From the NCBI GenBank assembly GCA_030683105.1, contig JAUXMZ010000025.1, positions 1 to 64,000 of the forward strand: a stretch of 64,000 nt of DNA. Reading direction: 5' to 3'. This stretch comes from Burkholderiales bacterium. Lineage in GTDB: Bacteria > Pseudomonadota > Gammaproteobacteria > Burkholderiales > SG8-41. Below are positions 5,016-51,145 of the stretch, one piece after another. Below the pieces are notes generated by a model, which was not told the origin of the DNA, ran no database searches, and worked only from the letters and a program-made list of their open reading frames with translations. How positions within the stretch are numbered: the first letter of the stretch is position 1; every line of letters begins with the position of its first letter. Both the position numbers and the translations under genes were made by a program.

Positions 5016-5519
5016 TTAAAGCCAGCGGTAGGGATAGACCGCCACTAGGCGTACGCCCTCGACGCTTTCCACCCGGCTTCCGTATATAACACTTTGATAT
5101 TTAATTAGTTTTACCTCGAATCGCAATTGCTTGACACCATCCTCCGCAGCCACTTCCAGATGATTGTTGTTGCGTGGAACATACACCAGTTGCCGCCTGG
5201 CTGAGTCGTAGTACCAGGCGCCCGGTTGCAGCGGCTTGCGATAATCGCCGGCATAATCTGTAGGCAATATCGACAGCCACTGTGTCGGATTCTCGACTTC
5301 CAGCCGCGCAGCCTCCTGCTGCCGATAAGTGATGATCAGTTCCGCGAGCCTGATCTGCAGGCCGGTCTTGACCGCCTGCAGCGTGGACTGCATGGCCACC
5401 TGCTCGGCCTTCTCCTGATAAAACCAGAGCCGGTTTAAAAGCACTGCAGCCAGCACGCCGATGATCGAGATCACGACCACCAGCTCGAACAAGGTAAAAC
5501 CGCGCGTGCGCGGTTTCAT
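5016..5519 (-). CDS. mshB: MshB-like prepilin
   Basis: This minor pilin has a short leader MKPRTRG and mature N-terminus [21 protein letters not shown] long helical stretch follows ([30 protein letters not shown]), then a [10 protein letters not shown]-terminus. The start is set at 5519, because the 16 residues before it in the longer open frame are pure heptamer-array translation (EPGTLNL). It lies between mshG and the pilin genes as expected for mshB, but is separated from mshG by a foreign four-helix-bundle gene. Confidence 0.7.
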
Positions 5520-5614
5520 GTTCAAGGTTCCGGGTTCCAAGTTCAATGTTCCGGGTTCCGGGTTCAATCCTACAAGTTCCAGGTTTCAGGTTCCAGGTTT
5601 CAGGCTCCGAGTTC
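5517..5614. repeat. Heptamer array, left arm around the S23 gene
   Basis: GGTTCCG, GGTTCCA, GTTTCAG-type units with a 7-base period begin exactly at the mshB start codon. The matching inverted arm (GGAACNT units) is not adjacent but lies at 6061-6089, beyond the four-helix-bundle gene. Confidence 0.8.
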
Positions 5615-5652
5615 CGATCTCTGCGGTTTTAGCGCAAACACTCCTGTCAGCG

Positions 5653-6042
5653 TCATTTGTATTTCGTGCCTTTCATTCCGGAGCTACGCAAATACGTCAT
5701 CAACGCGGCCAACTTCCTGCTAAGGTCTGTTGCCATAGCGTGAAGCTGTTCAAACTGCTCCTGATCAATGTATTGAAAATCGAGCGCGACATAAGTCTGC
5801 GCCCTGATTTCCCCAACCGACCCTTTCGCAATCGAGAGGAACTGTACGAATTCCGCGTTCCCGTCACGCTCAAATCCTTCGGCGATGTTTGACAACGCTG
5901 AAATTGAAGCGCGCCGCATCTGGTCGCGCAAGACAAAATCCTTGGCAAAATTTCCGTGTCCGGAGATAACAAAAATCTCGTTCGCGAGCCGCCGCGCGAT
6001 CTTCCAGCTTTCGATATCTTCAAAACTCTTGAACCCTGTCAT
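5653..6042 (-). CDS. Four-helix bundle protein (23S rRNA intervening-sequence protein family)
   Basis: The 129-residue protein matches the S23/IVP family: FEDIESWKIARRLANEIFVI at the N-terminus, FVLRDQMRRASISALSNIAE in the middle and SVGEIRAQTYVALDFQYI near the C-terminus. Members form small homopentameric helical bundles and occur inside rRNA intervening sequences or as scattered single genes; their function is unknown. Here the gene interrupts the msh operon in the same orientation and is bracketed by two inverted heptamer arms, as if carried as cargo. Confidence 0.82.
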   Translation of the reverse strand: MTGFKSFEDIESWKIARRLANEIFVISGHGNFAKDFVLRDQMRRASISALSNIAEGFERDGNAEFVQFLSIAKGSVGEIRAQTYVALDFQYIDQEQFEQLHAMATDLSRKLAALMTYLRSSGMKGTKYK

Positions 6043-42940: not shown

Positions 42941-43065
42941 TTCCGCCAGAATCCGGCAGGCCGCCAAGCTACGGTCGCTGCCGGCGATGTACATGCATGG
43001 CTGGACAGCTGGGGCACCGAGGCCGAAATACCAGCGCCTGCGGCCGGGCTGCAGACCTCAGACTC
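42941..43065 (+). pseudogene. Antitoxin 3'-end relic, left direct repeat
   Basis: In one frame it reads AGRQATVAAGDVHAWLDSWG then TEAEIPAP, the typical C-terminus of RelB/CopG-like antitoxins. It is about 90% identical to 43884-44009, in the same orientation, on the other side of parDE. No start or N-terminal DNA-binding part is present. Confidence 0.6.
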
Positions 43066-43068
43066 AAC

Positions 43069-43161
43069 AGACCTCAGCAGACCTCAGGGTCAGACTCGCA
43101 GAGACCTCAGGGTCAGACTCGAATTTCTACAGAGACCTCAGGGTCAGACTCGAATTTCTAA
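43069..43161 (+). repeat. Tandem CCTCAGGGTCAGACTC repeats
   Basis: Three partial copies of a unit of about 33 bases containing ACCTCAGGGTCAGACTC, two of them followed by GAATTTCTA. The inverse form TCGAGTCTGACCCT occurs at 44047-44142. Confidence 0.75.
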
Positions 43162-43215
43162 ACGGCTGAGGGAAGACGGGTTTGCCGGGTTTTCAAGAGT
43201 ATGTTAAATTGCACC

Positions 43216-43230
43216 AATAGTATGACTATT
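43216..43230. promoter_or_regulatory. ParD operator candidate
   Basis: A perfect inverted repeat AATAGT-ATG-ACTATT lies 22 bases before the parD start codon, between it and the repeats, where ribbon-helix-helix antitoxins autoregulate. Confidence 0.5.
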
Positions 43231-43252
43231 CACAGCATATTGGAGACGAGCA

Positions 43253-43510
43253 ATGGCAACCACCCGTAAAACCATCACCCTTTCCGATCAGCAAGACGCA
43301 TGGGTCAAGGTGAGAATTGCCAGCGGCGATTACACCAATGACAGTGAATATTTTCGCGACCTGATCCGCCGTGACCAGGAACAAAACGCCAAGTTTCAGA
43401 CCCTCAAGGCCGCCATTCAGGAGGGATTGGACAGCGGCGAGAGTAATCGGACGGTGCCGCAGATCATGGAGGAAGTCGAACTCCGATTGAGATCGAATGG
43501 GCATCTATAG
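43253..43510 (+). CDS. parD: ParD-family antitoxin
   Basis: An 85-residue protein: an N-terminal ribbon-helix-helix (RKTITLSDQQDAWVKVRIASGDYTNDSEYFRDLIRRDQE) and a helical tail with IQEGLDSGES that wraps the toxin. TTGGAGACGAGC is a fair ribosome site. The stop overlaps the toxin start by 14 bases, a typical parDE arrangement. It binds ParE and represses the operon in known homologues. Confidence 0.88.
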   Translation: MATTRKTITLSDQQDAWVKVRIASGDYTNDSEYFRDLIRRDQEQNAKFQTLKAAIQEGLDSGESNRTVPQIMEEVELRLRSNGHL

Positions 43511-43787
43511 TCTTACTTCCAAAGCCGCTGCCGATCTCGATCAAATCCACGAATACACGATTCTCAATTTCGGACTCAAGCAGGCACGGGAGTATCTTTC
43601 GGGTTTGCACGAGCGATTCAAGACCCTTGCGGAAAACCCGATGCAAGGTCGCAGCGCAAGCGAACTCTCGCCGGGTTTAAGGCGGCTTGAGTATCAGTCG
43701 CACGTCGTGTTTTACGTGCCAACGGACAAAGACATTCGAATCGTGCGCGTCCTGCACCAAAGCATGGACGTCAAAAGGCACGTATAG
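43497..43787 (+). CDS. parE: ParE/RelE-superfamily toxin
   Basis: A 96-residue toxin with YSLTSKAAADLDQIHEYTI, a NFGLKQAREYLSGLHERFKTLAENPMQGR helix pair and SHVVFYVPTDKDIRIVRVLHQSMD. The pattern is ParE, whose members poison DNA gyrase; RelE-like catalytic residues are not evident. It overlaps parD by 14 bases. The pair lies between direct repeats of an antitoxin relic. Confidence 0.87.
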   Translation: MGIYSLTSKAAADLDQIHEYTILNFGLKQAREYLSGLHERFKTLAENPMQGRSASELSPGLRRLEYQSHVVFYVPTDKDIRIVRVLHQSMDVKRHV

Positions 43788-43814
43788 CAGGCTCAGGAGC
43801 GCAGCGGCAGCCAA

Positions 43815-44009
43815 TTGTTGCGAGAGTTTATGCGTGACTACGTGCAGCGTAACGCCGGCCAGGCACTTGCACATGACGACTGGTTCCGCCAGCATCAAAG
43901 CAGGCCGCCAAGCCACGGTCGCTGCCGACGATGTACATGCATGGCTGGACAGTTGGGGCACCGAGGCCGAAATGCCAGCGCCTGCGGCCGGGCTGCAGAC
44001 CTCAGACTC
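43815..44009 (+). pseudogene. Frameshifted antitoxin relic, right direct repeat
   Basis: One frame reads LREFMRDYVQRNAGQALAHD then DWFRQ, the middle of a RelB/CopG-type antitoxin. After about 43890 the antitoxin tail (RQATVAADDVHAWLDSWG) continues in a different frame. It therefore holds a deletion or frameshift and is not functional. Its 3' part is the right copy of the direct repeat around parDE. Confidence 0.6.
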
Positions 44010-44150
44010 GAATTTCTATACCGATAACGAAACGTTGTTCTGAACATCGAGTCTGACCCTGAGCGCACCTGGGCTGCAGACCTCAGACTCGAATTTCTAT
44101 ACCGATAACGAAATGTTTTTCTGAACAATCGAGTCTGACCCTAAGATCAC
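43990..44150 (+). repeat. 81-base tandem duplication with inverted ends
   Basis: Two consecutive copies (43990-44070 and 44071-44150) begin GGGCTGCAGACCTCAG. Inside each, AGACTCGAATTTC and TCGAGTCTGACCCT form inverted ends around CTATACCGATAACGAAA. This resembles REP-type palindromes of the RAYT class; no transposase is nearby. Confidence 0.75.
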
Positions 44151-44154
44151 CCCT

Positions 44155-44186
44155 CCGTAAGCCCGTCCCTATTTCGGGCTTATCGG
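44155..44186. terminator. Hairpin downstream of the small peptide gene
   Basis: Eight-base arms TAAGCCCG and CGGGCTTA, extended by CCG/CGG, lie about 100 bases downstream of the peptide gene on the minus strand. There is no U run, so it may be a transcript-end stabiliser or a REP rather than a true terminator. Confidence 0.45.
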
Positions 44187-44278
44187 AGGTTCAATCCGCA
44201 ATCGATGATGCTGGTTGTGATTGCGCCCATCACCTCACAGATAGACGTACTAAGGCGCACCCCAACTGCGCCACGGCA

Positions 44279-44440
44279 TCACTGAAACACGCAACCGCAG
44301 CATTGCTCATCACTTATGCAAACACATGAACAAGCGCCGTCCCCAATCTCAGAGTTGTCCGTGAATTTGAGATAAATATCATCGATGATTTCGTTGTCTT
44401 CCTCGATCACTACAACGTTCTGCTCCGTATCCATACTCAT
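44279..44440 (-). CDS. Cysteine-rich RiPP precursor peptide candidate
   Basis: A 53-codon gene. The best start is the second Met at 44434 (51 residues, MDTEQNVVVIEEDNE), eight bases after a perfect AGGAGG at 44443-44448. The first two thirds are acidic, like a leader (EEDNEIIDDIYLKFTDNSE). After IGDG come six cysteines in 14 residues: CSCVC, five residues, then CCGC, ending VFQ. It begins about 10 bases after the radical SAM/SPASM gene stop on the same strand, so the two are coupled. The class (thioether or other crosslinks) is not predictable. No protease or exporter is seen nearby. Confidence 0.72.
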   Translation of the reverse strand: MSMDTEQNVVVIEEDNEIIDDIYLKFTDNSEIGDGACSCVCISDEQCCGCVFQ

Positions 44441-44450
44441 CACCTCCTCT

Positions 44451-45731
44451 CTAGAGATTCATCTGTTGCACCAAATCGTCAAACAACAGCTCTCGATTAA
44501 ACTCGCAACGCGCCCATCCGATCCGTCGCAAGTCCGGGCAATCGCCTGCGCAGTTCCACTTTGCAAAGCAATCACTACACCCGGCTGGCATGTCGCTACG
44601 CGAACGGATCTCATCCCGTTTTTCCGAGCAGAGCTCGATTGCACCGCTCATTTTGTCAATCTGCCCGTAACTGTAGTCTTTACCGTCTTGGTCGCGGTGA
44701 CAGGCGGTAATCACTCCGTCCACGCATACAGAAAAGGATGGAATTGCCATTGCTCCACAGAATCGCGCAATGAGACGCGAGAGCGACGGGCCGGAGGACG
44801 TCACATTGACACCTAAACTGCGCCCGCGCGTCCGGGCATCGAGGAACGAGCGGGTGAAACTCTCTACGGTTGGTGAACTAGCAGACTCGTCCATTAGAGC
44901 ACGGCCAAGGGGTGCAAGGGGTTCGAAGGCTACCGTTATTCCTGGCCCGAATTCCTTAGCGAAGAATTCAACCGTTGCAGGTAATTGCTTGACGGTCTGA
45001 CCAGATACGGTGGACCGAATTCCGACATGAAGGCGAGGGCGCCTGGAAAGAAAATAGCGTATTGACTGCGAAACAACCTCATAAGTCGGTTTACCGCGCC
45101 GGCTTGGTCGTTGCCAATCTTGAATTTCCGGTGGCCCATCGCAGGAGACAGTTAAATGATCAAAGTTGTCTGCAATAAATGTCCGCTTTCTGTCGTCGTA
45201 GAACCCATTGGTAGTCATTGACAAAAAAACTTGGGCTACGCCGAAGCGTTCCGCGCGCTCACGATCGCGGAGGTAATTGACGGTGCGAATGAACTGACGC
45301 CAAGGTAGTGTTGGTTCTCCACCAACAGCAAAGGAAACGGCGAGAGTGCGCCTTGGCGTTTCCGCAGCAGCCGAGAAGGCATGATCAAGGGCTGGTTTTA
45401 GTGTTGCCCAATCTGCATAAATCGCCTTGTTTGCATCGGCATGGCAATAGATGCAGCTAAGCGTACAGTCCTGAGTGAGGCCGATTCCGAGGTGAAAGGC
45501 ATTCTGCGGCGGAACAGCGGGGGTAATGGCGTGTGACTGCTTTTGTTTTAGGTTAGCAGCGATTTTGGAAGGAATTTCGCGACGCCTAAGTTGCGTGTAT
45601 GCCCGCTCAGAAACCACCAATGCTGTGCGAAGGGTCGGTGCGTAGAGAACAAAGGGAGCACTTCCCTTTGCCGACAAAGCCCAAAGGTCATGACCCTCAA
45701 AGTAGATGTGGTCTGAACTAATGCGATCCAC
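44451..45731 (-). CDS. Radical SAM/SPASM peptide maturase candidate
   Basis: A 426-residue radical SAM protein. The 4Fe-4S motif is C89-x3-C93-x2-C96 (LTQDCTLSCIYCHADA). VGGEPTLPW is the SAM glycine motif, and the barrel runs to about 300. A SPASM region binds auxiliary clusters: FCGAMAIPSFSVCVDGVITACH, then C385-x2-C388-x5-C394-x3-C398 and C409. Residues 1-75 form an N-terminal domain that could be the leader-binding part. It starts with GTG after AAGGAGG. Such enzymes crosslink Cys or other side chains in peptides, and a Cys-rich peptide gene follows immediately. GC is lower than in flanking core genes, suggesting transfer. Confidence 0.85.
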   Translation of the reverse strand: MDRISSDHIYFEGHDLWALSAKGSAPFVLYAPTLRTALVVSERAYTQLRRREIPSKIAANLKQKQSHAITPAVPPQNAFHLGIGLTQDCTLSCIYCHADANKAIYADWATLKPALDHAFSAAAETPRRTLAVSFAVGGEPTLPWRQFIRTVNYLRDRERAERFGVAQVFLSMTTNGFYDDRKRTFIADNFDHLTVSCDGPPEIQDWQRPSRRGKPTYEVVSQSIRYFLSRRPRLHVGIRSTVSGQTVKQLPATVEFFAKEFGPGITVAFEPLAPLGRALMDESASSPTVESFTRSFLDARTRGRSLGVNVTSSGPSLSRLIARFCGAMAIPSFSVCVDGVITACHRDQDGKDYSYGQIDKMSGAIELCSEKRDEIRSRSDMPAGCSDCFAKWNCAGDCPDLRRIGWARCEFNRELLFDDLVQQMNL

Positions 45732-46132
45732 AAATCCTCCTTCTTACCTATCGCAAGGTACCTAATAATATGTATCTGGAGATGGGAGCATTTGATCTAA
45801 ATCAACCGAACGTGGTAGGGCAGTTAATGACATGGGGACGGAGCCCAATTAATTTTTTCGCTGGCGGAAATTGGGCTCCGTCCCTATTTAACCCCGGCTC
45901 GGCGACTCTCAGGGGCCCCAAAATCAACGGCATATCCGAGTCGGACCAAAGCATGTGTGGTCCAGGGCGCCGGTTGTCGGGAGCCCGTTTCCGCTTACAC
46001 GGCCAATTTCGAGCCCAAAAAATAGCGCTCTAAGGCTGGAAAACAGCGTTTACCGAGATGATAATGGCGAAACGACAACGACTTGGCGTGGTCCGACCTG
46101 TGCAACGCCCTTCAATACTTTAGGCCCTACAA
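45732..46132. other. 400-base gap with a palindromic element
   Basis: It contains the 62-base palindrome at 45829-45890, the divergent promoter area of the radical SAM gene and, at about 46025-46126, a degenerate site that could be an attC (CTCTAAGG ... CTTTAGGCC, nine bases before the next start codon). An open frame at 45770-46033 is not coding. Confidence 0.5.
45829..45890 (-). repeat. 62-base palindromic element, copy 1
   Basis: Arms GGGACGGAGCCCAATT and AATTGGGCTCCGTCCC flank an asymmetric loop; the outer bases are GACATG and TATTTA. The loop is inverted relative to copies at 47376-47437 and 49097-49158. All three are exactly 62 bases. Confidence 0.88.
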
Positions 46133-46819
46133 ATGGAGAACTCTGTGTCACTCTGGGATGTTATTGGCTCGGTTCTGGCGTCAATTGGTGGTGCAACACT
46201 AATTGTTGGTGCATTCGCCCATTTTCTTGGCAAAGTTTGGGCTGATCGAATAGCTAAGCAAACGGTAGCAAGGTATGACCAAGAGCTTGAAACAACGAAA
46301 GCGCAAAATACATTGGCTCTTGAAGAGTTCAAACGAAAATCAAACACCGAGCTAAAGGATCGCGAGCAGTTCGGCGGAATTTCCTCTCAGGTGTATCAAG
46401 ATTTCTTCAAAAATAGAGTAGCAACCTACATAAAGCTTCTCGAAATCAAAAACGAATACATTTCCGGAATGCACGAAGACGCAGTTACAGAAGAAACCGA
46501 ACGATGGGGTGATGTCTACTATTCTTCATACGTAAAGTTCAGAAAAATTCTCGTTGAAAAACAACTATACATTTCTACGGAACTGGAAAAGGTCTTTCAT
46601 GATCTGCGGTTGGAGGCTGCCAAATATATTAAAGAGGCAGATTTGGCTGAAGGGTATGCAATTGGAGCCGGCGCCGAACCATGGGAGGCCGATGAACAGA
46701 GGTCACCAGTGCATGACAAACTTGCCCAAGGCACTCATAAGCTAATGAGTAACGTAATTCGCCAAATCGATACTGATGTGTCTAAATTGCGGGCCAGAAT
46801 TGATCTCGATAAGGTCTAA
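46133..46819 (+). CDS. Hypothetical membrane-anchored coiled-coil protein
   Basis: A 228-residue protein with an N-terminal membrane helix (about 8-33, VIGSVLASIGGATLIVGAFAHFLG), a charged coiled coil (about 38-75, RYDQELETTKAQNTLALEEF) and a helical soluble domain with tyrosine-rich YYSSYVKFRKI. I do not recognise a family. It is AT rich relative to the core genome. Its stop TAA lies inside a GTCTAAC core of an attC-like site, as for integron cassette genes. Confidence 0.62.
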   Translation: MENSVSLWDVIGSVLASIGGATLIVGAFAHFLGKVWADRIAKQTVARYDQELETTKAQNTLALEEFKRKSNTELKDREQFGGISSQVYQDFFKNRVATYIKLLEIKNEYISGMHEDAVTEETERWGDVYYSSYVKFRKILVEKQLYISTELEKVFHDLRLEAAKYIKEADLAEGYAIGAGAEPWEADEQRSPVHDKLAQGTHKLMSNVIRQIDTDVSKLRARIDLDKV

Positions 46820-46882
46820 CCCATCATTCCACCGGATCTTGCGCATAAAGCCGCGCATGACCGGTGAATTCATACGCTAGAC
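46814..46882 (+). other. attC-like recombination site
   Basis: GTCTAAC at the left and GCTAGAC at the right (consensus RYYYAAC and GTTRRRY, one deviation) bound a 69-base imperfect inverted repeat. The inner arms pair as TTCCACCGGATC with GACCGGTGAA, and TTGCGC with GCGCAT, with a mismatched five-base spacer and single extra bases as in integron attC sites. It joins the stop of one gene to the start of the next, 10 bases later. No integrase is in the window. Confidence 0.6.
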
Positions 46883-46891
46883 GACTAAACA

Positions 46892-47361
46892 ATGAATGCG
46901 CATTCCGAACTTGATCATCTCGCGTTCGCGTTCTTTCGCGAGTTTGCTCGTTGCGAGTACTGTCTTAAAGCCGTGGGCTTGTGCGAGGCGAGCCGCCGCG
47001 ATCCCACGGCAGACTGGGGAACCTTCGCGGAGCAGGTTCGAAAAACATTCGAGGCGCCACCGTCTGAACAGGTCGCCGAGGCAATTCACTATTACACGGA
47101 CCCCCCCCGAAGAAGCAAGTCCTTCGTGGATCGTTTCTCGACTGGGACTATGTGCAACCCGACCACAAGAGCCAAGCAGAGCTAGTGCTGCGCTTGGTTT
47201 GTCGGGTTCGGAACAATCTATTCCATGGTGGAAAGTTCAACGGGCATTGGTTCGAACCACAACGGAGCGGGGAGCTTCTTCGTCATGCACTGTGCATCCT
47301 CGAGGCGGTCGTGGCCGCACACCCGCAAGTAAGGGAAGCGTATGCACAGAAAGCCGTCTAA
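46892..47361 (+). pseudogene. Frameshifted HEPN-like gene
   Basis: Two open frames, 46892-47185 and the tail to 47361, join if one C is added to the C8 run at 47101-47108. The restored protein of about 156 residues is helical, starts MNAHSELDHLAFAFFREFAR and has RNNLFHGGK near residue 108, an R-x4-H motif as in HEPN ribonuclease-type domains. It may be an inactivated gene, a phase-variable tract or a sequencing error. It ends GTCTAAC, like the preceding gene. Confidence 0.6.
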
Positions 47362-47375
47362 CCTGTCGTTCTAAT

Positions 47376-47437
47376 GACGTAGGGACGGAGCCCAATTTCT
47401 GTCCGCGACAAAATTAATTGGGCACCGTCCCCATTTA
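47376..47437 (+). repeat. 62-base palindromic element, copy 2
   Basis: Arms GGGACGGAGCCCAATT and AATTGGGCACCGTCCC around a CTGTCCGCGACAAAATT-type loop. It follows the HEPN-like gene by 14 bases, inside the remains of a possible attC site. Confidence 0.88.
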
Positions 47438-47475
47438 TCCTGCTCTTAGCGCGGTTCGTCCCGTCAACGTATAGG

Positions 47476-48201
47476 CTACGCGAACGCCACAGCGGCCGGA
47501 TATTCGCGGACACGCAGAGTGGCGGGAAAAGTTCCAATATCCTTATAGTCCGACCAATTCGCGCTAGACCCCTGTTTCATAAAGAAGCTGACGCCGGCAG
47601 ATCTGCACTGGCGTCGGATGTCATGTGCCCAAGTTCTAAGCATCGGCCGGGCATACGGACCAGACTCACCCCCGACAATCGCCCAATGAATACCCTTCAG
47701 GTTGAGCGAGGGCAGCCCCCCGAGCAACGGTTCGAATGATACAAACCGGACTCTGGCTGGCACCTCGCGTAAGTGATCAATTCGCGATGTCACCAGGCTA
47801 TTTTCTACAGAAACACCCATCCATACATTCGGCGTCCAAGGAAGAGCAGCGGCAAGTGACAGAAGGCGGTCACTCCGCTTTGTGAGCACTTGGAAGATGT
47901 GTTGCGGGCAGGCAGTCATCACTTCAAACACACGGTTGATAAACTCTTCAGGGACATCTTCGTGAAACAAGTCGCTCATCGAGTTTACGAATATTTTCGT
48001 CGGGCGTCTGAGCAATCTCGGCTGGTCCAAGCGGTCAGAGTGGACCATAACTTCGGTGAAGGCGCGCGTGCCCCAAAAACGGTTAGCGAGACGCTCAGCG
48101 TAGCAATTCTTGCAGCCTTGGGATACCTTGGAGCAGCCAGTTACCGGGTTCCAGGTGCGTTCGGTCCACTCGATCTTTGTGACAGTAGCCATATGTGGCA
48201 T
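47476..48201 (-). CDS. DUF5131 / phage Gp37-Gp68 family protein (three-Cys motif)
   Basis: A 241-residue protein with the family start TKIEWTERTWNPVTGCSKVS and cysteines C23, C30 and C33 (C-x6-C-x2-C), which may hold a radical-SAM-like iron-sulfur cluster. Other motifs are KIFVNSMSDLFHEDVP, FQVLTKRSDRL, VWMGVSVEN and HWAIVGGESGPYARP. It lies four bases after tcmP, its typical partner. The biochemical function is unknown; phage and defence-like contexts are common for this family. Confidence 0.85.
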   Translation of the reverse strand: MPHMATVTKIEWTERTWNPVTGCSKVSQGCKNCYAERLANRFWGTRAFTEVMVHSDRLDQPRLLRRPTKIFVNSMSDLFHEDVPEEFINRVFEVMTACPQHIFQVLTKRSDRLLSLAAALPWTPNVWMGVSVENSLVTSRIDHLREVPARVRFVSFEPLLGGLPSLNLKGIHWAIVGGESGPYARPMLRTWAHDIRRQCRSAGVSFFMKQGSSANWSDYKDIGTFPATLRVREYPAAVAFA

Positions 48202-48205
48202 CGTA

Positions 48206-49030
48206 TCAGAAACCGAAACTACCCTGCGGGCTCTTATCGGCTACGGAATTCCAAATATTGGCGGCCAAGGGATGTCGCGAGAGAAGCACAAGCCAGTAGA
48301 GAGGCTGGCGGGTCCCGCCCCGAATCAGTGGCGCTTCCTTGGCGATCTGAAAGCCGTGCTTTTCAAATAACGAAACCCAATACCAAAATGTCGTTCCTCG
48401 CATCTGATCGCGAGCGCGCATCGTTACATGCGCGCGCCAACCAGGAACGAAGTCGTCCATAATAGAAGTTTCCTCTGCGAGGAAGCTGTCTAGATTACGC
48501 TGCAGATCATTCGCGCTGAAATGAACAATAAAATCTACGTGGCGAAGATCTCGCTCAAAAAAAGCCTCGAACACGCTGAACGGCAATGCCTTAAGATTGT
48601 ACGGGTCGAGGAATACAAGGTGCAGGCCGAATCTATCCAGTTCTGCGGCGGCTTTTCGCGAGGTTTCTCGCGCCTCGCCGACGAGGGTCCTTGGCATACA
48701 GCCCGCCCTCTTTAACCGAGTGTCGCAAGCCTCGGTTGATTCACGATCCGAATCTGCGACGATTACTGAAGTATAGGGCGCTTTGCTACCGGCTGACGCT
48801 CGCCAGGCAATCAGAGAACTGCCGTCGACAATTTGCCCGGTGGTCTTGACCTCGACACGGCCCGGACCGCTAAAAAGGTCAACATAGCCTCGGTGTTGAT
48901 ACTTAGAGCGGACGCCCCAGGTTGCATCGACATATTCGCGAAGGAGGCGGTGCTTCAACTCGACGGACCATTCGCCGACCTCTGCTACTGGCAAACCGTC
49001 AGAAGTATCAATCCGCGCGGGTTTCTTCAC
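48206..49030 (-). CDS. tcmP: Three-Cys-motif partner protein TcmP
   Basis: A 274-residue protein with GEWSVELKHRLLREYVDATWG, RGYVDLFSGPGRVE (a methyltransferase-like loop), VIVADSDRESTEACDTRLKRAG and VFLDPYNLKALPF. These match TcmP, found next to DUF5131 proteins. The fold suggests a SAM-dependent methyltransferase-like core, but activity is not established. It is the first gene of the pair, and a palindromic element lies upstream. Confidence 0.82.
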   Translation of the reverse strand: MKKPARIDTSDGLPVAEVGEWSVELKHRLLREYVDATWGVRSKYQHRGYVDLFSGPGRVEVKTTGQIVDGSSLIAWRASAGSKAPYTSVIVADSDRESTEACDTRLKRAGCMPRTLVGEARETSRKAAAELDRFGLHLVFLDPYNLKALPFSVFEAFFERDLRHVDFIVHFSANDLQRNLDSFLAEETSIMDDFVPGWRAHVTMRARDQMRGTTFWYWVSLFEKHGFQIAKEAPLIRGGTRQPLYWLVLLSRHPLAANIWNSVADKSPQGSFGF

Positions 49031-49096
49031 GACCTGATTCCCCTCCTATGCGCGCTGGCCGAGAAGCCAGGGCAAACTATTCTAGCCCAAAGCAAT

Positions 49097-49158
49097 GACA
49101 TGGGGACGAACCGCAATTTCCGTCCGCGACTAAATTAATTAGGCTCCGTCCCCATTTA
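49097..49158 (+). repeat. 62-base palindromic element, copy 3
   Basis: GGGGACGAACCGCAATT and AATTAGGCTCCGTCCCC arms, diverged from copies 1 and 2, with the same loop orientation as copy 2. It lies five bases from the stop codon of the next minus-strand gene. Confidence 0.85.
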
Positions 49159-49162
49159 ACTC

Positions 49163-50356
49163 TTAGGGCACCCGCATCGTCCTTACAATCTCCCCCAACA
49201 GAAGGTCAATCGGTGAGCGAAATTCAACCTGCTCACGATTTGGCAAGCTTTCCGACGCGCGAATTGGCATATGCAGGTAGCTGTCCGCTATCTTTCGCAC
49301 CGAGTTTTGCAGATGCTGCATGGCATCCTTAAATGATTTCCCGCTCCCGCTATAGTTGCTTGCCACCTCTTGGAACGTGCCGCACCCAAAGATTGGCGGG
49401 ACATGGTCAAGCACTGCACGTACTAGAAAGATGCACGACAAATACGACCCAGTTGCATAGGCGCGATTCAGCTCGAGTAGAAGAGAAGACAGCTTGGCCG
49501 TATCGTATTTGACTTTGGGTAACTCCTGAATTTCCTTGATCCGATGTGGATTCACAAACAACTCTTGCGGTACTGCCGCCTCGGGATAATGCTTGCGCGT
49601 CCTTATTCGAAAAGGTCGACCCTGAGAATCGAAGTCTTCTTCCTCGCTGTTCATCGACTCATGACAGAAGCTTACCGTGCCGCAACCAGCACACTTGATC
49701 GTCAAATAGTGGTGCCTGAAGTGAATTAAGCCGTCATCTGACCAATCTTCCCGGTTCACAATTGCCAAGATCGCGTGCGTCGTGTCTACCCGGCACGTAG
49801 GACATGGATACGCCTTGGTCATGCCGGCCGGGTCCTGTGCAGTAATGGAATTGTCCTGGCCGGGAATCTCCCGCTCCTTTCGATTCTGTAGAACGGCATA
49901 TATGGGACATTCGGTATAGTGCAGCGGTGTGCAGGACGACCAGCTCCACCGTGGATCCTCGCGTGAAGCGCCTTCCTTGCTTAACTGCTCGTGAGCGAGT
50001 CCCACGTCGATCTCGTCGGCGTACCTAGTCAGCCCCGAGGCAAAATATCCGAATCGATCGAACATCACTTCGGGACAAAAACGCGAGAAGATGCTGATCT
50101 TTTCCTCCGACCCAAAGATCGCGGACGCTTGCTCATCCGTGCGCGGCCACAAATCCGACTTCTCCCATTTTTCTTTCAGTCGATTGTCTTCAGCCTCTGG
50201 AATCTTGGTGCTGCCGGCGCTCCCCATCAATGAGAGACTTTGGTAGTACCGTGGACAGGCCTCGACAGTCCCAAAAGGGCAACGGACCGGGCTGCCACGC
50301 TCCTTGCTAATGGCTGCGACCCACTTTAGGTCGGGTATGTCGTCGGTTTTACCCAT
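49163..50356 (-). CDS. Hypothetical protein with zinc-ribbon and DUF4145-like C-terminus
   Basis: A 397-residue protein from the start at 50356. The middle has CPTC ... CAGC (about 193-196 and 232-235), a likely zinc ribbon. The C-terminal helical part (ELNRAYATGSYLSCIFLVRAVLDHVPPIFG) resembles DUF4145/HEPN-like domains. The N-terminal half, with CPFGTVEACPRYY and CTPLHYTECPIY cysteines, is unfamiliar. The start overlaps the upstream small gene by eight bases, so the two are coupled. Possibly a defence or stress pair, by inference. Confidence 0.55.
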   Translation of the reverse strand: MGKTDDIPDLKWVAAISKERGSPVRCPFGTVEACPRYYQSLSLMGSAGSTKIPEAEDNRLKEKWEKSDLWPRTDEQASAIFGSEEKISIFSRFCPEVMFDRFGYFASGLTRYADEIDVGLAHEQLSKEGASREDPRWSWSSCTPLHYTECPIYAVLQNRKEREIPGQDNSITAQDPAGMTKAYPCPTCRVDTTHAILAIVNREDWSDDGLIHFRHHYLTIKCAGCGTVSFCHESMNSEEEDFDSQGRPFRIRTRKHYPEAAVPQELFVNPHRIKEIQELPKVKYDTAKLSSLLLELNRAYATGSYLSCIFLVRAVLDHVPPIFGCGTFQEVASNYSGSGKSFKDAMQHLQNSVRKIADSYLHMPIRASESLPNREQVEFRSPIDLLLGEIVRTMRVP

Positions 50357-50624
50357 GAGCGTACACGCCGCCCGCCTCGGCAAGGACCAGTTCGTAAAAC
50401 GCTGCTATGTCCGTAGGAGCATCGTGAAGCGCCTCCAAATCGTCCTCAACCTCACGGAGATGTCGGTAAAGAAACATCGTGCAGTCTTTTGCAATGGTGA
50501 GCATCGGTATATTCATTTGTTCCAGATCGTCCAGGTGAGCGACAAACTTGTCCCGATACGTAACCATTGCCGTCCTGCACGCATCATATAGCGGCCAAGC
50601 TGGCCGCGCGCTCGCAACCACCAT
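50349..50624 (-). CDS. Small HEPN-like protein, possibly truncated
   Basis: A 91-residue helical protein with MVTYRDKFVAHLDDLEQMNI and ILTIAKDC-type helices (read as MLTIAKDCTMFLYRHLREVE). RDKFVAH gives an R-x5-H arrangement close to AbiU2-type HEPN proteins. Upstream, another frame reads HELRKALKWWLRARGQLGR, which could be its lost N-terminus after a frameshift. It overlaps the zinc-ribbon gene by eight bases. The assignment is tentative. Confidence 0.5.
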   Translation of the reverse strand: MVVASARPAWPLYDACRTAMVTYRDKFVAHLDDLEQMNIPMLTIAKDCTMFLYRHLREVEDDLEALHDAPTDIAAFYELVLAEAGGVYAHG

Positions 50625-51145
50625 TTTAAGGCTTTACGCAACTCGTGGTGCGGCCCTACGCTACTGTTCTCGGGGGTTAAGATAGCACTTATGATAGGAA
50701 TTTCAACGCGAAATAGCGAACCAACTCCTCGAGCGCGGCGCTGTTTAGTTAAGCCGGCTTGTGACGGTGCAAAACGGCATCAAAAGTCTTCCGCAGCCGG
50801 CTGCGGCCTGCTATTTGCACACGGCGTTCTTCTACGGGTCGGATTCTGCCGTAATGCGCAAGAGCAATGGCCCCGTCGGGGATCTATCACGCTGATCGTC
50901 CGGTTTTGAATCCAGATCGGACGTAATGGTATCGTTCAATCAACGACAGCTTTGGCCGAACAGCAGACGCTGATGCATGCATCGGCGAGCATCTCTTGTG
51001 GGGGTTTCCAGAATTGGGATTCGGAACCACCCATCAGATTGAGCCGCGACTACAGTTGAGGACCCCGCGCTGAGCCCGTCCCTCATTAAACGATAAGTAT
51101 CTTTTAGGACACCCTTCACTCTTCACCCTTCACTCTTCACTGTTC
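50625..51145. other. 520-base gap, right end of the island
   Basis: No convincing gene. It contains a perfect 16-base palindrome CCGCAGCCGGCTGCGG (about 50794-50809), GTTAAGC at 50748 (an isolated match to an attC core) and a TTCAC heptamer array next to polA. Confidence 0.6.
51109..51144. repeat. TTCAC-type heptamer array at the polA 3' end
   Basis: TTCACTC, TTCACCC, TTCACTC and TTCACTG follow with a 7-base period immediately beyond the polA stop codon. Confidence 0.8.

Follow-up and report, generated by a model that had tools for sequence, protein, structure and literature searches.

The window analysed here is a stretch of 64,000 nt from a Burkholderiales bacterium (GCA_030683105.1, contig JAUXMZ010000025.1, positions 1–64,000). 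Within it, a gene for a radical SAM/SPASM peptide maturase is followed, after a gap of 10 nt and on the same strand, by a short gene for a cysteine-rich peptide (Table 1). The original prediction had described this arrangement correctly, as a 426-residue protein with a 51–53-codon gene about 10 bases downstream and a perfect AGGAGG, leaving the strand unstated; both genes lie on the minus strand. The pair sits in a low-GC island that is bordered by gltB and polA.

Table 1. Coordinates of the maturase–peptide pair and of the features around it in the window.
Feature	Position	Strand	Basis or description
Low-GC island carrying the pair	43000..51100	.	GC ~0.47–0.58 versus ~0.60–0.64 in the flanking DNA
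Radical SAM/SPASM peptide maturase, 426 aa	44451..45731	(-)	ORF and translation; GTG start, AAGGAGG 4 nt upstream
N-terminal 80 residues, RRE/PqqD-like candidate domain	45492..45731	(-)	Family motif, predicted topology and weak structural match
CX3CX2C radical SAM motif (C89, C93, C96)	45444..45467	(-)	Sequence and alignment
SPASM domain, seven Cys (C325, C344, C385, C388, C394, C398, C409)	44505..44759	(-)	
Shine-Dalgarno AGGAGG of the peptide gene	44443..44448	(-)	
Candidate precursor/substrate peptide gene, 53 codons (51 if ATG 44434 is used)	44279..44440	(-)	Acidic leader-like half and CSCVC-CCGC core
Peptide core CSCVCISDEQCCGC	44291..44332	(-)	Six Cys in 14 residues, three CxC units
Stable hairpin	44152..44189	(-)	~90 nt downstream of the peptide stop; fold z -6.5
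ParD/ParE toxin-antitoxin pair	43253-43787		Adjoins the maturase locus
110-nt duplication and cluster of CAGACCTCAGGGTCAGACTCGAATTTCTA repeats	42956-44151		Around the ParDE genes; duplicate copies 96% identical, 944 nt apart
Palindromic GGGACGGAGCCCAATT repeats	45832-45886 and 47380-47434		91% complementary, flanking integron-like ORFs
attC-like site	46812-46886		Directly after ORF 46133-46819(+)
DUF5131 (Gp37/Gp68-like) and TcmP gene pair	47476-49030		Matches PADLOC candidate defence models PDC-M41/M30

Maturase and peptide genes

Cysteines occupy positions 89, 93, 96, 197, 325, 336, 344, 368, 385, 388, 394, 398 and 409 of the maturase, and the first three form the CX3CX2C motif that had been predicted. 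For the SPASM domain, the five cysteines originally listed (C385 to C409) are all present, but the set has seven members, C325 and C344 having been left out. The spacing C325-x13-G339-x4-C344, C385-x2-C388-x5-C394-x3-C398 and C409 agrees with the pattern CX9-15GX4C-CX2CX5CX3C-C, and neither the radical SAM nor the SPASM cysteines vary across 30 aligned rows of relatives. The protein scores above the gathering score of PF04055 (Radical_SAM; 35.8 versus 29.5 bits) and above the cut-off of NCBIfam TIGR04085 (SPASM; 28.4 versus 27 bits), and no curated equivalog in NCBIfam covers it. Its scores lie below the cut-offs of the nif11-type radical SAM model TIGR04064 (99.3 versus 518.7 bits), PapB NF047865 (93.5 versus 340 bits, the second-best NCBIfam match), QhpD TIGR03906 (77 versus 453 bits) and SCIFF/CteB TIGR03974 (74.9 versus 425 bits).

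An AF2 model of the maturase, built from 26 aligned sequences, has a mean pLDDT of 86.9. Its best structural neighbour is CteB (5why_B), with a Z of 30.4 over 380 aligned residues (model residues 13–425), and TigE also aligns, from residue 11. Residues 1–80, which contain the motif ..ILYAPLR..AF..N conserved in relatives, are predicted to adopt a beta-beta-beta-beta-alpha-alpha arrangement whose topology fits a PqqD-like RRE. When this N-terminal domain was searched in isolation, Foldseek returned no significant match and the top VIA match was CteB residues 1–73. With a Z of only 4.1 for that weak match, the assignment of the domain as a leader-binding RRE is likely but short of proof, the predicted features being suggestive rather than decisive.

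The peptide (MSMDTEQNVVVIEEDNEIIDDIYLKFTDNSEIGDGACSCVCISDEQCCGCVFQ) contains 13 acidic residues and 1 basic residue, in keeping with the acidic leader-like half first described, and its six cysteines lie at positions 37, 39, 41, 47, 48 and 50. The window has 882 segments between stop codons that measure 40 aa or more, and 4 of them reach such a density of six cysteines in 14 residues. Since the AGGAGG stands 8 nt from the second ATG (44434) and two bases from the first, the 51-codon start is the likelier one. There is a single CX3E in the peptide (C41-E45), without repeated CX3D/E motifs, and the Asp-Cys dipeptide is absent. Neither NCBIfam nor Pfam holds a family match, as expected from the earlier remark that the cysteine pattern belongs to no named family, and shuffled local alignment gave no significant similarity between the leader and those of other short precursors. 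By eye, a [VI]xF[IL] strand can be seen ahead of the core in several short precursors, an observation to which we attach no claim. The hairpin 3' of the gene has no T-run and hence is no canonical terminator; a promoter and terminator scan gave nothing above chance, and no terminator was called.

The maturase is single-copy in its own genome, and no second copy of the peptide occurs in plasmids or in the rest of that genome. Beyond the window's own genome, the maturase was found in none of 300 sampled genomes of the order and none of ~400 of the phylum, while ~370 genomes of the class yielded two remote matches of 29–30% identity; across the more than 1,000 sampled genomes of order, class and phylum, the pair has no close relatives. 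We consider that its island was probably acquired horizontally. As a single-protein query in a viral scan, the maturase gave no match. Among the ORFs neighbouring the pair no protease or transporter gene was recognised, in agreement with the original prediction, nor was a metal regulator or metal transporter recognised beside the pair or an amine dehydrogenase gene seen at the locus.

CxC proteins beside related maturases

A scan of a genome collection with a six-row profile returned 80 loci. The closest maturase relatives are 24–32% identical to the window protein, the best reaching only 31–32%, and they come from about a dozen phyla. Their hosts are Verrucomicrobiota, Nitrospirae, Actinomycetota, Coriobacteriaceae, Clostridiales, Acidobacteria and Bacteroidales, with further members in Armatimonadetes, Chloroflexi, Planctomycetia, Desulfocapsaceae, Spirulina, Dojkabacteria and others. 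Maturase homologues consistently lacking a downstream Cys-rich gene had been named as the outcome that would speak against the pairing; this is not the case, as most have an adjacent one. A precursor directly downstream of the maturase is moreover the usual order in this group, so that its position in the window is not the oddity it had been taken for.

One type of neighbour consists of peptides of ~50–185 aa with CxC repeats, directly downstream of the maturase and often ending in CxC-[VA]PVH (loci L007-L009, L012-L014, L017-L019, L023, L025, L026, L028 and L034). A second is a WD40-repeat protein of ~440–490 aa that has a twin-arginine-like signal and ends in a CxC tail, for example CTCNCVPG...CTCNQVCTCVPV (L010, L015, L016, L020, L021, L024, L029 and L033, and L038 with the protein upstream). 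The third kind comprises singular cases: a Caballeronia locus (L005) has a Tat-like neighbour protein with CSC-CAC-CVC, and a Methylocystis locus (L002) has an Asp/Cys-rich CxC peptide with a recombinase nearby. On a viral contig (L089, 3294–6334), a CxC-repeat protein lies upstream of the maturase and a Baseplate_J gene downstream; this CxC-repeat protein is possibly a phage structural protein modified by the radical SAM enzyme, and the maturase of this contig had no counterpart in phage records. Among relatives the commonest CxC unit, C[ST]C, is followed by N, V, D or E, and V or I often comes after the final copy. The window peptide carries the same element, as CSCV and CGCV, but without the six-residue repeat of the relatives. 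The proposed group of CxC-substrate maturases is marked by an adjoining ORF with at least two CxC units; the window peptide has three.

Relatives from enterobacteria (L004, L006 and L030; two on plasmids, of Salmonella and Edwardsiella, and one in Erwinia) also place the maturase before a peptide, here a glycine-rich one with FEFLCCRGG and a CCRGG core. We did not count these peptides as support because their core lacks CxC; rather, they indicate that the substrate core varies within the wider maturase group. Several relatives nearest the base similarly have Cys-rich neighbours without the CxC pattern, namely these CCRGG peptides and L087. An annotated ABC transporter and S8 proteases lie downstream on the two plasmids (L004, L006) and a transporter-like ORF lies downstream in Erwinia, and these loci resemble full RiPP clusters for which there is no curated name. 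A separate observation concerns the coriobacterial loci, where a Tat/lipoprotein-like protein upstream of the maturase (in L012 at 5241-5711) has a weak PqqD (RRE) match; proteins of similar appearance follow the maturase gene at L210 and L211.

We counted CxC neighbours at the relatives scoring above 260 bits (34 without the window and 35 with it), loci that are not all independent, eight Coriobacteriaceae-type rows being close kin. A strict rule counted any ORF on the same strand, no more than 700 nt away, that follows an RBS and has two or more CxC within a span of 60 residues. It found such a neighbour at 22/34 relatives (23/35 including the window), compared with 2/52 more distant maturases and 38/614 other long ORFs. 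Addition of L002, L005 and L026, whose plain CxC ORFs were lost to the RBS filter, brings the count to 25/34. A tighter rule (immediately downstream at -60 to +150 nt, RBS-preceded, at least four Cys and two CxC) retained 15/34 relatives without the window versus 0/52 distant maturases and 3/608 unrelated long ORFs, and the chance rate of such a downstream ORF is ~0.5%.

For replication, ~300 genomes each of Acidobacteria and Verrucomicrobiota were sampled, giving 13 maturase loci, of which L205 was set aside because its tail is identical to that of L038. A CxC neighbour is present at 9 of the remaining 12, six being found at once (L192, L193, L195, L199, L202 and L203) and three more with longer flanks and a looser distance of 1,200 nt (L206, L209 and L211). 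The WD40 neighbour at L208 has one CxC and an S74 endosialidase-chaperone tail. L206, L208 and L211 add to the Tat-signal WD40 proteins ending in a CxC tail, whose genes adjoin that of the maturase in many phyla. In a quick tree, 33 rows including the window split with full support from four SCIFF/Ruegeria outgroup rows, a split that carries a long-branch warning; the window maturase is itself a long branch in this tree, without a supported sister.

Proposed modification and alternative explanations

We propose that the pair is most likely a two-gene RiPP-type unit in which a CteB-like maturase cross-links the cysteines of its downstream peptide. This proposal starts from what was observed directly: the genes, their domains and the recurrence of CxC proteins beside related maturases. 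From these we infer the substrate role of the peptide, the modification of its cysteines, the type of bond and the use of the product. The maturase would bind the acidic half of the adjoining peptide, probably via its N-terminal RRE-like domain as in CteB. Its CX3CX2C cluster would then cleave SAM so that a substrate radical forms, and, with electron transfer through the auxiliary SPASM clusters, the Cys-dense C-terminus would be oxidised. The most probable outcome is a set of thioethers that join Cys sulfur to carbons in nearby residues, because members of the structural neighbourhood form thioethers, Cys-Thr in the case of CteB (PMC11002830) and Cys-Asp/Glu in that of PapB, which accepts CX3E spacing (PMC9413430). 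The C[ST]C unit puts Thr/Ser, Asn, Asp, Glu or Val by each Cys and indicates no single partner. Related maturases are likewise paired with CxC units, borne by short peptides in some cases and by the tails of larger exported proteins in others.

The minimal RiPP locus originally proposed therefore stands in part. Its enzyme–substrate pairing is well backed by the adjacency in relatives, but instead of a trimmed and exported natural product the window peptide may be a small modified protein, given that the neighbour in many relatives is a full-length WD40 protein with a Tat signal and a CxC tail; for the same reason, a secreted antibiotic should not be assumed. Without a dedicated protease or transporter, the product could be trimmed by housekeeping enzymes or remain as it is, and the modification may have a permanent role in a working protein. 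More tentatively, the pair could be a pared-down outlying member of a class not yet described, whose SPASM radical SAM enzymes put one conserved modification on CxC units and whose CxC tail acts as a portable tag on free peptides, Tat-exported WD40 propellers and phage-like structural proteins, the modification being a lasting part of a functional protein. We regard this wider view as possible, with the balance somewhat against it.

The cysteines might instead stay free, the peptide being a small metal-binding (metallothionein-like) protein and the maturase acting on a residue other than Cys or on a different protein. Clusters of the CxC and CC kinds are classic ligands of metals, but in about a dozen phyla the CxC proteins occur together with a SPASM peptide maturase, and the surroundings of the pair offer no recognisable metal regulator or metal transporter. 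The missing leader protease and transporter would suit such a protein, as would the fact that in relatives the CxC tails belong to large Tat-signal proteins, whose export could take place with the metal already bound; CteB, the closest match of known structure, on the other hand, forms Cys thioethers (PMC11002830). Taken together, we find a metal-binding role distinctly unlikely. It is more improbable still that the maturase is an orphan with its substrate elsewhere, next to a small ORF that arose by chance: position, perfect Shine-Dalgarno sequence, the same arrangement in relatives and the ~0.5% chance of the downstream ORF outweigh the lack of a second peptide copy in the genome or plasmids and the 4/882 window segments that equal its Cys density.

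It is also rather unlikely that the pair is a conventional ranthipeptide or sactipeptide bacteriocin locus (of the PapB, SCIFF or sactipeptide type) from which the protease and exporter have disappeared. The weak matches of the maturase to the nif11 radical SAM, PapB, QhpD and SCIFF models lean this way, but all fall far under the cut-offs (best two 99/519 and 93/340 bits). Similarly, the C41-E45 pair in the core has a spacing accepted by PapB (PMC9413430), but the core is no CX3D/E repeat. The two enterobacterial plasmids share the gene order and have the ABC transporter and S8 protease downstream, whereas the tree parts the group from SCIFF-type rows, albeit with only four outgroup rows and long branches that meet.

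Comparison with known systems and neighbouring features

The ranthipeptide maturase CteB (SCIFF; PDB 5WGG, 5WHY; TIGR03974) resembles the window system in combining radical SAM and SPASM domains with a Cys-rich precursor, and the structural match extends to the CteB N-terminal domain; the window maturase, however, is 18% identical to it, and the peptide matches no SCIFF model. PapB (NF047865) likewise adjoins a Cys-rich acidic peptide, PapA, but the window core is of the CxC type rather than a CX3D/E repeat. QhpD (TIGR03906), the maturase of quinohemoprotein amine dehydrogenase, is a weakly matching radical SAM/SPASM enzyme that cross-links a protein subunit instead of a small natural product; no dehydrogenase genes were seen at the window locus.

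Two-gene SPASM–peptide loci have been described, and this kind of locus is thus already known: minimal radical SAM–peptide loci were reported by Kostenko et al. 2022 (PMC9062424) and are common in that literature, and the window pair is not unusual on this count, contrary to the original prediction. Cluster 59 of that study comprises a recombinase, a radical SAM enzyme and an Asp-Cys peptide and is, by description, similar to the Methylocystis locus with its nearby recombinase and Asp/Cys-rich CxC peptide, but repeated Asp-Cys rather than CxC is described for it, and the window peptide has no Asp-Cys. Neither NCBIfam 20 nor Pfam contains a CxC partner class that includes WD40 and phage-like proteins, and the literature searched (including CxC, WD40 or Tat with radical SAM) describes none; the main ranthipeptide and radical SAM atlas papers fall outside this coverage, so that an earlier mention is possible.

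Our comparison ties an isolated two-gene locus to a pattern seen in about a dozen phyla, in which one SPASM maturase group has diverse partners that share CxC. If the CxC units are modified, they would provide a new precursor signature for genome mining, and the Tat-signal WD40 partners would represent radical SAM cross-linking of large exported proteins, of which little is known. The window locus, with one enzyme and one 51-codon peptide, is the smallest test case.

Against defence-system models the maturase gave only weak generic viperin matches, expected of any radical SAM domain. The island also holds the DUF5131–TcmP pair with its candidate defence models and, next to the maturase locus, the ParD/ParE pair with its surrounding duplication and repeats. 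The attC-like site gives an attC-type hairpin on its bottom strand (z -4.1), and an integron integrase over the cut-off is encoded on another contig of the same genome.
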